Positions 60-19,223 of a stretch of 36,696 bases of DNA are shown here, in pieces. Location of the stretch: the NCBI GenBank assembly GCA_019359175.1, contig JAHHHU010000032.1:1-36696 (forward strand), in the 5' to 3' direction. The notes beneath the pieces were generated by a model. It made no database searches and was not told the origin of the DNA. It worked only from the letters and a program-made list of their open reading frames with translations. Position numbers and translations under genes: made by a program. The first letter of the stretch is position 1, and each line of letters opens with the position of its first letter. The DNA comes from Phormidium tanganyikae FI6-MK23. GTDB taxonomy: Bacteria > Cyanobacteriota > Cyanobacteriia > Leptolyngbyales > Leptolyngbyaceae.

Positions 60-300
60 TTATCTCAATGCAACCTGAGCAGCTTGAGTCTTTTGCACAT
101 TTGGGTTGCTCCCCTTTCCAAGCTTGAAGTTTGGCACGAACAGCTTCTTGATCCGATTTGGGAGGCATCGCAGCAAGACGGGCAAAGTGTTCTCGATTGC
201 GTTCTTCCCAATAGTGTCGATCGCTTTCTGCAATCTGCAAAACTTGTTGATACTCAGCTTCTATTTCAGCTTGATGAGTTTTGATGTAAGTTGAGCGCGA
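60..300 (-). pseudogene. coding-like fragment without a start codon, downstream of the DUF1499 gene
   Basis: On the minus strand an open frame runs out of the 3' end of the DUF1499 gene in a different frame and reads a hydrophilic, charged sequence (for example AESDRHYWEERNREHFARLA). It has no ATG, GTG or TTG in a sensible place and no recognisable start signal. A one-base frame change near position 85 would give a natural-looking end at a TAA at 60-62. I do not recognise the family. It may be the remains of a gene whose 5' part was lost, or a chance frame with good composition. Confidence 0.3.
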
Positions 301-776
301 ATCGACTCGATCCGTTGCCGATTCACACCAAGATCCGATTCCCCAAGTCGCGATGCCGATCGGACTTGAATCACATTCGCTGCTTTGTCCAGATAAAACT
401 CAACATCATCCACAAAGCCCATCAGTTTGCTGGTGAACTCTGCATAGACATAGTTGTCAGAGGCTTGAACAATCTTGGTTCGAGGTAAAGACTCGATCGT
501 TTGTTTCAAGTTTGCGATCGCTTTGTCAGGCGCAACCGAATAGCGAATCGGCTCGATCGCATGAGTCGGATCAGTGCTGAAACTGCTAACACAATTCGGA
601 GTACTGGGACAATCTGCAAAGAGATCGTTTGTTAAGCCCAAATTTGACGGGCGAGTGCCTGAGAAAGAAAACAAAGTTGCGATCGCCGGATTGAATGGAA
701 GTGCGATCGCATTTGGAACAACACCGAACCAGCAAAGTGATCCAATCAAGAACAATGTGACAATACGCTTCAGCAT
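261..776 (-). CDS. DUF1499 domain protein with signal peptide
   Basis: 171 residues. The N-terminus (about residues 1-25) is a typical signal peptide with a hydrophobic core ending near AIA. The body carries the DUF1499 signature CPSTPNCVSS around residues 55-64 and the later conserved block with FTSKLMGFVDDVEFYLD and VRSASRLGESDLGVNRQRI. DUF1499 proteins are widespread in cyanobacteria, chloroplast-bearing plants and proteobacteria; their biochemical role is not established. The length is normal for a stand-alone member. The gene is monocistronic as far as can be seen; upstream lies the decayed uma2 gene on the other strand. The ATG at 776 is preceded by a purine-rich stretch and is the natural start because the signal peptide begins there. 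Confidence 0.85.
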   Translation of the reverse strand: MLKRIVTLFLIGSLCWFGVVPNAIALPFNPAIATLFSFSGTRPSNLGLTNDLFADCPSTPNCVSSFSTDPTHAIEPIRYSVAPDKAIANLKQTIESLPRTKIVQASDNYVYAEFTSKLMGFVDDVEFYLDKAANVIQVRSASRLGESDLGVNRQRIESIRAQLTSKLIKLK

Positions 777-857
777 GAATCTCTGCGGTAAACTTCACTT
801 TTAGTGTAAAGGAGCGGCGTGTAAAATGAAGGGAACGATCGCTCGTGGGCTAGTGTG

Positions 858-1158
858 ATGACTTTATTGGAAACTCAAATCTCGATCGACACTTGGATTT
901 CTGCTTCATGAGATGAGTTCGTCCAGATTGCGGACGCTCCTGCCTTTAGCAAGCTCAAAGGCTACTACCATCAAAAAAGGATGAGATTTGAGCTATGTCT
1001 ACTGGCGCTGACCATTCCGAAGATCACACCACATTACGATGAGTGTTGCACTCTATGCAGCGCTTAAAGGCATCCGAATCAAGGGACGCGATGGCTGTTC
1101 ATACCGCAAGGCTGGATCAAATGAATTTCAGCCAGATTTGTCGTAGTACATTGTGGTT
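858..1158 (+). pseudogene. Uma2 (DUF820) pseudogene, N-terminal half
   Basis: Three short frames together read a Uma2-family N-terminal half. From the ATG at 858 it reads SISIDTW-like sequence, an in-frame TGA at 909-911 where the family has Trp (context ISAS*DEFVQIAD), then KLKGYYHQKRMRFE. A frameshift near 993 leads to MSTGADHSEDHT, another near 1037 to MSVALYAALKGIRIKGRDG, CSYRKAGSNEFQPDLS, and a TAG at 1144-1146 before YI. These are the conserved Uma2 blocks in the right order. Two stops and two frameshifts make it clearly dead. The homology stops abruptly after the PDLSYYI block; the matching C-terminal half is found at 3377-3796. Confidence 0.8.
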
Positions 1159-1160
1159 TT

Positions 1161-1656
1161 AGGCGTTGCTAGTCCCTTCCTCTGTCACTTAAAAATTCTT
1201 TGCGATAAAACCTCTTACTTTAGGTCGATGAAGTTATAGATTCGATTGATATAAGGTTTCCTGTAATTAACAGATGTCTTGAATAACAACAGTCTAGACA
1301 GTTTTTTGAACGATTTCAAAAAGCTCTTAGAGGTTACATTCTAGAATTGAGCTATTTTTCAAGGTTGGCTCTATTCCTGACTTTAATAAGATCCTGTCCA
1401 ACAGGCGAATCAGGGTTTGAGCCTGAAAATCTGCTCAAAATCTGTCCGAAGTATTGGAATAGATTAGCTTTGATCATTGCGCCCCGAAATTAACTTCTTT
1501 ATGAGCTATGTATTAGCGATGTTCACTGCCACGAGTCAATGCCTACCCAATGTCGTTGCGGAGACGCAACGAAGCCTGCTCAGAGCCTAATTGAATAGTG
1601 TAATTCTTTGAAGCTTCGCATCGTATTAGAGTCAACTTAAGTCATCACAGAACTTT
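1161..1656. other. AT-rich non-coding stretch upstream of the radical SAM gene
   Basis: About 500 bases without a believable reading frame on either strand. It is AT-richer than its surroundings and holds short hairpin-capable sequences, the clearest being at 1554-1571. It presumably contains the promoter of the radical SAM gene at 1657, but I cannot point to convincing -35 and -10 boxes. It forms the left part of the segment that separates the two halves of the decayed uma2 gene. Confidence 0.5.
1554..1571. repeat. perfect 7-bp stem, 4-base loop hairpin
   Basis: CGTTGCG, loop GAGA, CGCAACG: a perfect inverted repeat with a compact loop, about 85 bases before the radical SAM start. It has no T-tract, so it is not a typical intrinsic terminator. 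Short GC-rich hairpins of this kind are scattered as dispersed repeats in many cyanobacterial genomes; whether this one is a repeat copy cannot be decided from one window. Confidence 0.45.
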
Positions 1657-3237
1657 ATGAAAGCATTGTTGCTCTATCCTCAATTTCCCCAGTCTTTCTG
1701 GTCTTACGATCGCTTCATGGAAATTGCTGGACTGAAAGCAGTGATTCCACCTTTAGGAATTATTACGGTTGCTGCACTACTACCGTCAGACTGGGATATC
1801 CGGTTTTACGATCGCAATGTTGCTTGCGAAAGCCAAGCAGACTGGGAATGGTGTGATCTAGTCATTCTTTCCGCCATGATTGCTCAGAAATTGGAGTTTC
1901 AGGCGCTAATTCAAAAAGCCGTTCAGTTAGGTAAGAAAGTAGCTGTCGGTGGACCTTATCCGACCTCGGTTCCTCAAGATGCCTTAGACGCTGATGCTCA
2001 TTTCCTGATCTTGGATGAAGGGGAGATGACCGTTCCCAAATTCCTGGAAGCAATTGAGCGGGGCGATACACAGGGGATATTTCGATCATCTGAGAAACCA
2101 GACGTGACTCAAAGCCCTATGCCACGCTTTGATTTGCTTAAACGGGATGCCTACTTGATGATGGCAATTCAGTTTTCGCGTGGGTGTCCGTTCAACTGCG
2201 AGTTTTGTGACATCATTTCGCTCTATGGGCGTAAACCCCGAACTAAAGAACCGAGCCAAGCTTTAGCTGAGCTGCAGACTCTTTATGATCTAGGTTGGCG
2301 TGGTTCGCTTTTTGTCGTAGACGATAATTTTATTGGTAATCAGAGGAACGTTAAACGCTTCCTCAGAGAACTGATTCCCTGGATGCAGCAGCGCGATTAT
2401 CCATTCACCTTCATTACAGAAGCCTCAGTCAACCTGGCGGAAGATGATGAATTACTTCAACTCATGGGTGAAGCAGGCTTTTTTGCCGTTTTCTTAGGCA
2501 TTGAAACGCCTGACCAGGAGAGTTTACATGTTACCCGTAAATTGCAAAATACCCGCAATCCTTTGGTGGAAGCTTGTGACAAGATCAATAAGGCAGGGTT
2601 ACTAATCTATGCAGGATTTATTCTTGGATTTGATGGAGAGAAAGCAGGAGCAGGCGATCGAATTCAAGAGTTTGTTGAACAAACTAGTATCCCTCAACCC
2701 ATGTTAGGCATTCTTCAGGCTCTACCTAACACAGCACTATGGGAGCGACTGAAAAAAGAGCAGCGTCTCATTGAAAGCAACAGCCATCTGACAGGCGACC
2801 AGAATACTCTGATGAATTTCATTCCAACTCGGCCGATCGCAGAGATTGCCAGCGAATATGTCGAAGGCTTCTGGGAGTTGTATGACCCTCAGCGTTATCT
2901 CAAACGCTGCTTTCAGCAATGTCTTCAAATCCGTACTCTGACGAGTCGAAAGCAAACAAGACTATTCCCCTTAAGCACAGGTGTACGATTGGTTACCCAA
3001 CTTATTTGGCATCAAGGAATCCGCCGACCCGAAATTCGAGGACAATTTTGGTATCAGCTCTGGGTTCTTCTGCTCAAGAAACCACAGAGTCTCAGTCTGT
3101 ACTTAGGGTTGTGTGCGGCTGGGGAGCATTTCTGGCAGTACCGTGCATTGGCAAGAGAGAAGATTAGTCAACAGCTTGGTTATGATCCGCTCGAGATTTC
3201 TGTAACTTCTGATCGAGAGCCAATATTAGTACAGTAA
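1657..3237 (+). CDS. B12-binding radical SAM protein (DUF4070 type, HpnP-like architecture)
   Basis: 526 residues. The N-terminal 140 residues form a B12-binding-like Rossmann domain (starts MKALLLYPQFPQSFWSY; later VAVGGPYPTSVP and LILDEGE). The radical SAM core follows, with the [4Fe-4S]/SAM motif Cys177-x3-Cys181-x2-Cys184 (RGCPFNCEFCD) and a downstream VVDDNFIGN block. The C-terminal part matches the DUF4070 extension. The family includes the hopanoid C-2 methylase HpnP and several unassigned cyanobacterial paralogues, so a radical methylation or similar B12-dependent reaction on a lipid or unactivated carbon is the family-based expectation; the substrate is not deducible. It reads intact, with no frameshift. 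It has no functional neighbours: it sits alone between the two halves of a broken uma2 gene. Confidence 0.85.
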   Translation: MKALLLYPQFPQSFWSYDRFMEIAGLKAVIPPLGIITVAALLPSDWDIRFYDRNVACESQADWEWCDLVILSAMIAQKLEFQALIQKAVQLGKKVAVGGPYPTSVPQDALDADAHFLILDEGEMTVPKFLEAIERGDTQGIFRSSEKPDVTQSPMPRFDLLKRDAYLMMAIQFSRGCPFNCEFCDIISLYGRKPRTKEPSQALAELQTLYDLGWRGSLFVVDDNFIGNQRNVKRFLRELIPWMQQRDYPFTFITEASVNLAEDDELLQLMGEAGFFAVFLGIETPDQESLHVTRKLQNTRNPLVEACDKINKAGLLIYAGFILGFDGEKAGAGDRIQEFVEQTSIPQPMLGILQALPNTALWERLKKEQRLIESNSHLTGDQNTLMNFIPTRPIAEIASEYVEGFWELYDPQRYLKRCFQQCLQIRTLTSRKQTRLFPLSTGVRLVTQLIWHQGIRRPEIRGQFWYQLWVLLLKKPQSLSLYLGLCAAGEHFWQYRALAREKISQQLGYDPLEISVTSDREPILVQ

Positions 3238-3376
3238 TATTTCTCAAAAAGTTCTTTAGCTCGACTTTATCCATTAGGCAGCATAGCAAAGTGCCTCCAG
3301 CTAACAGCTAAACACCTGGCTTGGGACTTTAATCAGGTCACGCTCACACCCCGACCTCTCAAAAAGTCGCGGTACC

Positions 3377-3796
3377 CATAAATAGGATCGTACTAACGCC
3401 AACGCATCAACGACAACTGTAATAAAAGGCAATTCCTCGCGGAACACGAGTTGTGATTTGAATGTCTACCCTTTGCCAGACTTAGTGATTGAGATTTCAG
3501 ATACTTCACTTTCTGATAATCTGGGGAAAAGCGCCTGCAATACGAAGACCTGGGTATTCCTGAGCATTGGAGCATTAATGTCCAGAAAAAGCAGATTCTT
3601 GCATTCCCACTTGCACCGGATGGCACAATTCGCCGCATTCCCACTTGCACCGGATGGCACAATTCGCCGCATTCGAGAATCGGTCATTCTTCCCGGTTTG
3701 AAGCTAGACATCTTAGAGCAAGCCTTATAGCTTAGTGATCAGGAAGATCAATCTGCAATGACTACATGGCTAATGACACAGTTTCAAAATCAGTAA
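3377..3796 (+). pseudogene. Uma2 (DUF820) pseudogene, C-terminal half
   Basis: Reading with frame changes, this stretch gives the C-terminal half of a Uma2 protein: DRTNANAS, then CDLNVYPLPDLVIEISDTSL, a frameshift near 3528, RLQYEDLGIPEHWSINVQKK, ILAFPLAPDGTIRRI, and, after removal of one copy of a 34-bp tandem duplication (3601-3668), RESVILPGLKLDILEQAL. A TAG at 3728-3730 is followed in frame by LSDQEDQSAMTTWLMTQFQN and a TAA at 3794-3796, the usual family ending. It begins just where the N-terminal half at 858-1158 stops in the family alignment, so the two look like one gene separated by the intervening DNA. Its end overlaps the 3' end of thrB. Confidence 0.8.
3601..3668. repeat. perfect 34-bp tandem duplication
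   Basis: Two identical 34-bp units (3601-3634 and 3635-3668) lie head to tail inside the uma2 pseudogene. Because 34 is not a multiple of three the duplication shifts the frame; removing one copy restores the family sequence through TIRRIRESVILPG. It looks like slippage or unequal recombination in a gene no longer under selection, not a CRISPR or regulatory iteron. Confidence 0.9.
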
Positions 3797-4698
3797 ATTA
3801 AGCTTGTTCCTTGAGATTCGATCGCTAAATTTTTCACCTGCACCCCAACGCCTAAATCCATCCAAGCCTTTTCCATTGCCGCATTTACTGATTCAGCCTT
3901 TTCCTGATGCGCTAACGCCAACACAGTCGATCCGGCTCCACTAATCACCATGCCGTAAGCTCCAGAGACGATCGCTGCTGTTCTCACCATTTCATATCCC
4001 TTGATCAGATTCTCCCGATAAGGTTGATGAATGCGATCGTGCAGTGCTGCCTTTAACCAATCTGCGTTTCCGGTTTCTAATCCTCGGATTAACAGTCCTA
4101 AATGAGCCGTATTGAAAATCGCATCCGCACGGCTATAGGTTGCAGGTAGAACACTCCGAGCTTCAGCGGTTGATAGTTCAAAATCAGGAATTGCCACGAT
4201 CGGAACAATGCTCGAATGCCAAGATAAATCGCAGATTTCCCAAGCTCGATCGACACCCGATGCGGCTAACCGACAACCCCCAATCAGCGCAGGCACGACA
4301 TTATCGGGATGTCCTTCAATTTCCGTTGCGAATTCTGCAATCTCAAGCTGAGTGAGCGGCGATCCTGCTAGTTGATTCGCTCCGACTAATCCACCAACGA
4401 TCGCGGTTGCCGAACTCCCTAAACCTCGCGCAAGTGGCACATCCATTTTGATATCGAGTTGAATCGCTGGAAGTGGTTGACCAATACGATCGTAGAATTT
4501 CACAAACGCTTGATAGACCAAATTACTCGAACCGAGTGAAACGCGATCGGCTTCTGCTCCCGTTGCGGTAATTTTCAATCCAGAATCGACTAAGGAAAAT
4601 TGGAACTCGTTGTAGAGAGTTAGTGCGGCTCCGAGGCAATCGAATCCAGCACCGAGATTGGCAGTAGTAGCGGGAACGCGGACGGTAACAGTAGACAT
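3790..4698 (-). CDS. thrB: homoserine kinase
   Basis: 302 residues from the ATG at 4698, beginning MSTVTVRVPATTANLGAGFD, which is the classic N-terminus of homoserine kinase. It phosphorylates L-homoserine with ATP to O-phosphohomoserine, the branch-point step before threonine synthase. The GHMP-kinase ATP-binding motif PLARGLGSSATAIVGG lies near residues 85-100 and the C-terminal GHMP block with ISGAGSTVLAL is present. The open frame extends 43 codons upstream, but that stretch is unlike the family and would run into folC, so the downstream ATG is preferred. It is divergent from folC with about 60 bases between the starts. Its last bases overlap the end of the uma2 relic. Confidence 0.93.
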   Translation of the reverse strand: MSTVTVRVPATTANLGAGFDCLGAALTLYNEFQFSLVDSGLKITATGAEADRVSLGSSNLVYQAFVKFYDRIGQPLPAIQLDIKMDVPLARGLGSSATAIVGGLVGANQLAGSPLTQLEIAEFATEIEGHPDNVVPALIGGCRLAASGVDRAWEICDLSWHSSIVPIVAIPDFELSTAEARSVLPATYSRADAIFNTAHLGLLIRGLETGNADWLKAALHDRIHQPYRENLIKGYEMVRTAAIVSGAYGMVISGAGSTVLALAHQEKAESVNAAMEKAWMDLGVGVQVKNLAIESQGTSLIY

Positions 4699-4758
4699 GA
4701 GCAGCGATCGCAGTGAACAGTCATCTATTGTAGAGTTAAGCGATCGCAATTTTCGGGT

Positions 4759-9547: not shown

Positions 9548-10099
9548 ATGACTATTAGCACCCTGAAATGGACGATCGATCTTTATCACCAAGCGGTAGA
9601 AGCGGGCGTATTTAATGCTGTGCCCGTTGAATTATTGAATGGAGAATTAGTCGAAATGTCCCCTGAAGGCGTGCCTCATGCTGGTTTAAGCGACAGTTCA
9701 TCTCGGTATTTGCAACGGCTTTTAGGAGAACGGGCAATCGTGCGTGTTGGACACCCAATCACGCTGCGAAATCACTCTGAACCGGAACCCGATTTAGCGA
9801 TCGTTCAACCGCTTGAAGAGGTCTACAAAAATGAACATCACCCCTACCTAGAAAACATTTTCTGGGTGATCGAGTACTCGAATTCAAGCTTGCAGAAAGA
9901 TCTAGAAATCAAATCCAAAATCTACGCAGAAGCAAAGATTGCTAAATACTGGGTGATTAACTTGAAAACGAGAGAATTGATTGTCTTTCGCGATCCGATG
10001 AATGGGGAGTATCGATCGCAAGTCACGTTAACCAGCGGTGTAATTTGTCCTCTCTCTTTCCCAGAGGTCGAAATCGAAGTTGCGCGCCTCATTCGATAA
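9548..10099 (+). CDS. Uma2 family (DUF820) protein
   Basis: 183 residues. Uma2 proteins have a PD-(D/E)XK endonuclease-like fold and are massively expanded in cyanobacteria; their function is unproven. The family pattern is visible: LLNGELVEMSPEG near 30-42, EPEPDLAIVQ near 77-86, IFWVIEYSNSSLQKDLEIK near 100-118 and KYWVINL near 129-135. It starts 3 bp after the pdhC stop, so it could be co-translated with the E2 gene, but nothing links the two functionally. It is intact, unlike the relic at 858-3796, and is only distantly similar to the Uma2 at 18627. Confidence 0.85.
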   Translation: MTISTLKWTIDLYHQAVEAGVFNAVPVELLNGELVEMSPEGVPHAGLSDSSSRYLQRLLGERAIVRVGHPITLRNHSEPEPDLAIVQPLEEVYKNEHHPYLENIFWVIEYSNSSLQKDLEIKSKIYAEAKIAKYWVINLKTRELIVFRDPMNGEYRSQVTLTSGVICPLSFPEVEIEVARLIR

Positions 10100-18630: not shown

Positions 18631-19223
18631 CTCTCTGATTCAAACGTTACGCCTTCGTAGAGATCTGCGATCGCCCATTCAATTTCGAGCGGTAGCTCCG
18701 CTTCCCGTAGGGTTCGCAGTTGGATCGATTGTGCATCGGCTCCATAATCTCGCAGTAGCCAGCCTTCGGATGTCTTCGTATGGTGTTCGATTTCAACCTG
18801 ATATTGATTGATCAAGACATACTCTTGGAATTGAGGAACCGATCGATACATTTTGAATTTATCAGAGCAATCGTATCCTTGCGTGGACTTCGATAGCACT
18901 TCAACAATCAGACAGGGATTCGTGACTGTATCTCTTTGATCGTCGAGAAAGATCGGTGTTCCCTGAATTACCATCACATCTGGATAGGTATAAAGCTGAT
19001 AGTCAGGAATCCATAACCGTAGATCGCCGAAAAAAGGTTCTGCCCCTTTTCCTCTTAGCGCATATTTCAGGAAAGCATATACATTTCCAGCAATCCGGTT
19101 GTGATCGATCGTTCCTCCGGTCATTTCGACAATTTCTCCGTTGCGATATTCACTGCGAAAGTCGGCTTTGCGTTCAAGCTCCAGATATTCTTCTGGGGTC
19201 ACTTGCTTCACTTGCGTTTGCAT
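18627..19223 (-). CDS. Uma2 family (DUF820) protein
   Basis: 198 residues starting MQTQVKQVTPEEYLELERKA, a standard opening of the Uma2 subgroup. Conserved blocks: RNGEIVEMTGGTIDHNRIAG (27-46), YPDVMVIQGTP (80-90), PCLIVEVLSKSTQGYD (101-116), KFKMYRSVPQFQEYVLI (120-136). The Asp in the YPDV block and the Glu in LIVEV fit the PD-(D/E)XK-like active site proposed for the family. Intact. It converges on the ampG-like gene with a 4-base overlap of the two stop codons. A HIP1-related GCGATCGG lies before its start. Confidence 0.87.
   Translation of the reverse strand: MQTQVKQVTPEEYLELERKADFRSEYRNGEIVEMTGGTIDHNRIAGNVYAFLKYALRGKGAEPFFGDLRLWIPDYQLYTYPDVMVIQGTPIFLDDQRDTVTNPCLIVEVLSKSTQGYDCSDKFKMYRSVPQFQEYVLINQYQVEIEHHTKTSEGWLLRDYGADAQSIQLRTLREAELPLEIEWAIADLYEGVTFESES

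Follow-up and report, generated by a model that had tools for sequence, protein, structure and literature searches.

A uma2 pseudogene split by a radical SAM gene lying between insertion-sequence ends in Phormidium tanganyikae

Uma2 proteins form a nuclease-like family. Here we describe a uma2 gene of the cyanobacterium Phormidium tanganyikae FI6-MK23 that is split by a fragment carrying an intact gene for a B12-binding radical S-adenosylmethionine (radical SAM) protein, the passenger. It lies in a 36,696-nucleotide stretch (the window), which is the entire contig C28 (JAHHHU010000032.1) of a 5.74-Mb draft genome (G000) in 77 contigs, 96.3% complete. Among the closest described systems are the pseudo-compound transposons and translocatable units of the IS6 family of insertion sequences (IS), a family covered by a review (PMC7986276). 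For the passenger the closest are the HpnP and HpnP-like proteins, which PMC10697835 defines by three domains.

The locus resembles an IS6 pseudo-compound transposon in that the passenger sits beside an IS6-family end in a dispensable gene, and in a congener (genome G005) the related passenger lies between two IS6-family copies. It differs in having no second IS6 copy and no 8-bp duplication, and in having an IS701 fragment as its right border. With an IS6 end on the left, an IS701 end on the right and no outer target duplication, it falls outside both the compound and the pseudo-compound class. We consider it likely that an IS-bounded radical SAM cargo inserted into a single, expendable uma2 gene between a DUF1499 gene and thrB. 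A literature search by title (Uma2, DUF4070, cyanobacterial miniature inverted-repeat transposable elements (MITEs)/IS701, IS6 passengers, HpnP) did not find the insertion described.

One uma2 gene in two parts

A single uma2 gene is split at this locus and both halves are pseudogenised. The thrB gene was located in all seven congeners. In G006 an undivided uma2 gene of 215 codons adjoins thrB convergently, and its product scores 69.7 bits with the Uma2 family model PF05685 (cut-off 27). In contrast, the window holds the gene as a split pseudogene, which is absent among the 93 matches of this model in the 5.74-Mb home genome and was assigned through the G006 orthologue. By tblastn, residues 1-45, 46-60 and 60-99 of the G006 protein fall at window positions 858-992, 992-1036 and 1033-1152, residues 105-113 and 114-213 at 3429-3455 and 3455-3787, and residues 137-175 at 3523-3639 in a different frame. 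Residues 100-104 are the sole ones left unplaced, so at most five codons are missing and the halves do not overlap; the insertion point follows codon 99. At the DNA level, positions 815-1024, 1088-1151 and 1166-1704 of the G006 locus (L020) correspond to window positions 820-1027 (80%), 1090-1153 (75%) and 3429-3999 (74%). Decay is evident from in-frame stops at 909-911, 1144-1146 and 3728-3730 and from several frame changes.

A search of the home genome with the G006 protein listed 12 matches, including four window pieces that are 74%, 61%, 78% and 41% identical. The best complete paralogue is 48% identical to the G006 protein and owes its top score to completeness. Since score alone is insufficient, the window pieces are taken to make up, between them, the orthologue of the G006 gene on account of their identity and their position beside thrB.

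An initial annotation of this DNA had proposed one uma2 gene split by a cargo in an expendable gene, with both halves on the plus strand, correctly ordered and with neither overlap nor a large gap. The undivided G006 gene beside thrB and the complementary halves (residues 1-99 and 105-213) bear this out. Both checks that it suggested, aligning the halves to intact Uma2 proteins and seeking the locus without the insert in relatives, lead to the G006 gene. None of the outcomes it named as contrary (halves from different subfamilies, overlapping halves, two independent uma2 genes in relatives) was observed. Its start for the C-terminal half, at DRTNANAS near 3377, was mistaken: DRTNANAS (about 3386) is antisense to VDALALVRSYLW of an IS701-type transposase, and uma2 resumes at about 3421-3429.

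The other congeners differ at this locus. G003 has kept the DUF1499 gene and thrB and has lost the interior of uma2, so that sequences matching window positions 291-875 and 3663-3999 are about 10 bases apart. The spacing between the DUF1499 gene and thrB in G001 and G004 (about 50 and about 130 bases) is too short for uma2, and no uma2 match was found there; the order of the two neighbours is conserved in G001, G003 and G004 (tblastn). Different open reading frames (ORFs) adjoin thrB in G005 and G007, no DUF1499 match was found on the left in the stretch of G006 examined, and the G002 contig stops inside thrB and is hence uninformative. Within one genus the locus occurs with an intact, a split or an internally deleted uma2, or with too little space for the gene. 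In the window, the insertion may have preceded the decay of uma2 or followed it. Uma2 matches occur twice more in this stretch of DNA (window positions 9620-10081 and 18687-19196).

Contents and edges of the insert

The passenger is intact and under purifying selection. As the initial annotation had it, an intact B12-binding radical SAM gene lies between the uma2 halves; its product has three Pfam domains, DUF4070 included. The ratio of nonsynonymous to synonymous divergence (dN/dS) is 0.04-0.06 against nine homologues (G005 and G007 give the same values, and dS exceeds 2 in three), which indicates that the gene has been kept functional. Two further statements of that annotation, that the insert contains no transposase and that the gene has its own 500-base leader, do not stand. 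The insert holds an IS701-family 3' fragment, an IS6-family 3' end and a MITE copy. Much of the supposed leader is made up of the IS6 end and the MITE, and DNA in common with related radical SAM loci begins only at about 1580. Rfam gave no RNA match reaching the gathering score in the window, the leader included. The segments 1154-1170, 1213-1280 and 1463-1579 carry no assigned feature.

On the left, the worn IS6 end was compared with three IS6 copies from G005 and G007, and its scores were equalled by 0, 4 and 1 of 2000 shuffles. In the home genome, four of 12 IS6 loci give an alignment that extends as far as their AACC end or slightly beyond it (0 of 300 shuffles each). The IS6 model search of this genome (54 matches in 5.74 Mb, fragments included) gave no match in C28, where the 42-bp 3' end is all that remains.

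On the right, the C-terminus of an IS701-type transposase is encoded on the minus strand at 3277-3411, with 45-56 residues left and one stop. By tblastn the fragment matches transposase pieces at E 1.4e-8 (L056, 44%) and 8.9e-8. The pieces at L052 and L056 match the IS701 model NF049999 (E 2.7e-29 and 1.3e-29, as pieces below the whole-protein cut-off), and the N-terminal piece at L052 exceeds that cut-off. An NF049999 search of the home genome gave no match in C28, where only the fragment lies. The tip of the element, AGCTCGACTTTATCC, is present with at most one mismatch in 26 of the 33 genomes searched. Elements of about 180 bp in G009 and G014 (L174, L175, L176) have inverted ends like this tip and are apparent IS701-type MITEs.

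Between the IS6 end and the passenger lies a MITE: it is short, non-coding and multi-copy, with terminal inverted repeats and a target duplication. Copies elsewhere, found by near-consensus ends, measure 174 bp at all 12 places (L035, L037, L039, L043 and L064-L071; L043 and L168 are one place), and a 6-bp flanking duplication is exact at seven, a shifted near-match at three and absent at two. In its length, terminal repeats and exact duplications the element is like MITEs mobilised by IS elements, as it also is in G007 (L164), where the same ends, 1.3 kb apart, enclose an IS701-like transposase. The 174-bp MITE was seen in at least four genomes of the same family (G007, G011, G024 and G027) besides the window copy.

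Three candidate features at the edges were rejected. The initial annotation had pointed to GTAC at 1146 and at 3372 as a possible target duplication. Both are present, yet the window has 65 GTAC and the 3372 copy sits within the IS701 fragment, so the duplication falls. An 8-bp target duplication, TACATTGT, finds a best match of 4/8. An IS6 5' end was suspected at 1155, where GGTT agrees, yet 22430 of 36681 positions score equally well.

Table 1 Features of the split uma2 locus (window coordinates)
Feature	Position	Strand	Basis
DUF1499 gene, left neighbour	261-776	-	Pfam PF07386, E 1.7e-43; tblastn matches in L022, L023, L024
uma2 pseudogene, 5' part (G006 residues 1-99)	858-1153	+	tblastn with undivided G006 Uma2; blastn 80% over 820-1027
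Insert, about 2.27 kb	1154-3420		Alignment to undivided G006 locus L020; right limit uncertain within 3414-3428
Worn 3' terminal end of IS6-family element	1171-1212	+	Aligned to last 43 bp of G005 IS6 copy, reaching terminal base
MITE left flanking hexamer, GAATAA	1281-1286		Sequence reading
MITE copy, 170 bp	1287-1456	+	Multi-copy matches; terminal repeats and flanks
MITE right flanking hexamer, GAATAG (5/6 as left)	1457-1462		Sequence reading
DNA upstream of radical SAM gene, common with nearest radical SAM locus (L009, G019)	1580-1656	+	blastn 1580-3181, 82.7%; local score 80, shuffle maxima 25-26
Intact B12-binding/radical SAM/DUF4070 protein, 526 amino acids	1657-3237	+	Pfam PF02310, PF04055, PF13282, all over cut-offs
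IS701-family element, 3' end	3258-3413	-	DNA 85% to G007 (C31), 72% to G009; outer tip toward radical SAM gene
uma2 pseudogene, 3' part (G006 residues about 105-213)	3421-3796	+	tblastn; blastn 3429-3999, 74% to L020
Perfect 34-bp tandem duplication within uma2 3' part	3601-3668	+	
thrB homoserine kinase, right neighbour, convergent with uma2	3790-4704	-	TIGR00191, 285 bits, cut-off 168

How the passenger may have moved

We propose that a fragment of about 2.27 kb interrupted uma2 after codon 99, carrying the radical SAM gene bounded by outer IS ends, IS6-type on the left and IS701-type on the right. The expendable uma2 halves decayed, while purifying selection has maintained the passenger. 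The MITE probably arrived later than the insert, and an IS6-type element may have taken part in moving the gene. As no target duplication was found around the insert as a whole, the moving step is inferred.

Comparison between genera suggests that the radical SAM gene reached this lineage by horizontal movement between cyanobacterial genera. Against G019, which belongs to another genus, the passenger is 88% identical at the amino-acid level, with a third-position difference of 0.37, and thrB is 63% identical, with 0.68. Against five more genera the corresponding values are 83-85% (0.43-0.48) for the passenger and 64-68% (0.61-0.66) for thrB. The divergence of the passenger is nearly independent of relatedness, which suggests horizontal transfer. 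In a tree from a short search without bootstrap, and without the G002 copy (L198), the window copy groups with that of G019 (Shimodaira-Hasegawa-like approximate likelihood-ratio test, SH-aLRT, 96), next to G005 and Cyanobacteria bacterium FACHB-63. A further group of copies from congeners (G001, G003, G005, G006 and FACHB-63) forms a separate clade. Two rows far from that of the window (L132, L151) have unreliable end branches of length 10 and were retained. Relatives of the passenger occur in, among other named organisms, FACHB-63 and Leptolyngbyaceae cyanobacterium C42_A2020_001.

The nearest congeneric copy, in G005, sits between two IS6-family copies that are 82.9% alike. In G007 a radical SAM locus 99.7% identical to it adjoins one IS6-family copy and a 79-bp IS6 remnant. 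This remnant presents the opposite IS6 end to the radical SAM gene, so the IS6 end in the window is probably an independent association. The 9.5-kb stretch around the passenger is 99.7% identical between G005 and G007 (L171, L172), despite a genome collection of one genome per species.

Several observations count against this proposal, as regards both the movement and the part played by IS6: (i) between the window and the congeners G005 and G007, the passenger (86%, third-position difference 0.41) and thrB (88-89%, 0.39-0.40) diverge to an extent that would fit vertical descent, and the argument for horizontal transfer depends on one reference gene, thrB; (ii) the match to IS6 covers a short stretch of 42 bp, and eight of the 12 IS6 loci in the home genome lack it, some of these being cut short or of other subgroups; (iii) no IS6 end was seen at the right edge of the insert, and a clean compound-transposon event is not shown; (iv) for a target duplication around the whole insert the best 8-mer agreement is 4/8, although decay could hide one; (v) both IS ends point inward to the radical SAM gene, and where they adjoin uma2 the two elements are cut off; and (vi) IS linkage is not general in the radical SAM family, with transposases within 1.5 kb at four of 80 loci (L073, L074, L075, L104) and near the gene at one of the 57 loci that have 5 kb on both sides. 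A general linkage was rejected on these counts, which come from a small transposase query set drawn in part from radical SAM loci and are partly circular for the nearest relatives.

The inward IS ends and the truncation at the uma2 junctions fit equally well with fragment capture by illegitimate recombination, in which a broken or taken-up fragment with ends inside IS6 and IS701 would have been joined into uma2 without transposition. We give this route somewhat less than an even chance. Each junction with uma2 coincides with, or lies close to, a truncated IS element, no more than five uma2 codons were lost and there is no duplication; breakpoints in two IS would be two coincidences, unless IS DNA favours breakage, an objection beside which the numerous IS6 copies of the home genome are to be set.

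Clean IS6-type (pseudo-)compound transposition, or a translocatable unit, would require that the right IS6 was lost later with an IS701 insertion and a deletion. It draws on the IS6 end at the left edge, the IS6-radical SAM-IS6 arrangement in G005 and the abundance of IS6 in the home genome. Such an event should have left a duplication and IS6 sequence at either side, yet neither the right IS6 end nor the 8-bp duplication was found. The supposed 5' end at 1155 is no better than background, and the G007 remnant, which shows the radical SAM gene the other IS6 end, marks a different insertion. We regard clean transposition as rather unlikely; fragment capture fits as well, or slightly better.

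A 77-contig draft with many IS copies could in principle join unrelated contigs. An assembly artefact is nevertheless very improbable here: the junctional IS pieces are short and degraded, the longest other home-genome match of the right piece is 34 bp (10 of 24 candidates scored), and the decay and nested MITE point to an old, natural insert. That two independent uma2 genes or fragments flank the radical SAM gene by chance is scarcely credible even in a genome with 93 Uma2 matches, since the two halves complement each other as parts of a single G006 gene, found at this very locus, to which the best other Uma2 of the home genome is 48% identical, and the G006 locus refutes it unless the G006 gene is a fusion.

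Family and distribution of the passenger

Returning to the inserted cargo, the passenger contains B12-binding, radical SAM and DUF4070 domains within one protein, the set by which the HpnP and HpnP-like proteins are defined, and its host has a squalene-hopene cyclase (TIGR01507 over cut-off). No NCBIfam model reached its cut-off with the 526-residue protein. It is a putative methyltransferase of the HpnP family; what it methylates is inferred. That it is HpnP proper, the hopanoid C-2 methyltransferase, and travels from one cyanobacterial genus to another with IS6-type elements seems improbable.

Across the 58 genomes searched, the home genome included, all give some match to the passenger and 23 have a near-full-length homologue at 70% identity or more; a second homologue in the home genome is 55% identical. 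Squalene-hopene cyclase exceeds its cut-off in 21 of these 23 genomes and in 26 of the other 35, which does not discriminate; of the 23, those lacking it are G015 (87% complete) and also G038 (99% complete). Among the matches listed, alphaproteobacterial plasmid homologues are 40-44% identical to the passenger and 40-42% to the second copy, again not discriminating. No annotated hopanoid genes were found near three plasmid homologues in the gene table used, which is incomplete.

A conserved pairing of the radical SAM gene with a small ORF was considered and rejected. This ORF ends in CPCCSY-LLRH-YWRCSHCYQEMP and weakly resembles Zn_ribbon_IS1595 (best E 0.005, below cut-off). The strict CPCC zinc-ribbon pattern occurs at five of 80 loci (L073, L079, L092, L104, L105), a lower bound that misses the L014/L078 variant, and lies upstream on the same strand at only three of 80. 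Its remnant in the window is HCHESMP only (tblastn E 0.06), and for the DNA at 1463-1580 the comparison scored inside the shuffle range.

Together with an undivided relative, the locus documents a cargo bounded by IS ends inside a dispensable uma2 gene, which as a genome event is of an ordinary kind. A member of the HpnP/HpnP-like family seems to pass from one cyanobacterial genus to another. In cyanobacteria, hpnP is reported to track the species tree broadly (PMC10697835). If the passenger is true HpnP, hpnP would be mobile in Leptolyngbyaceae-like lineages, which would bear on 2-methylhopane biomarkers and touch the argument for vertical inheritance of cyanobacterial 2-methylhopanoid synthesis.

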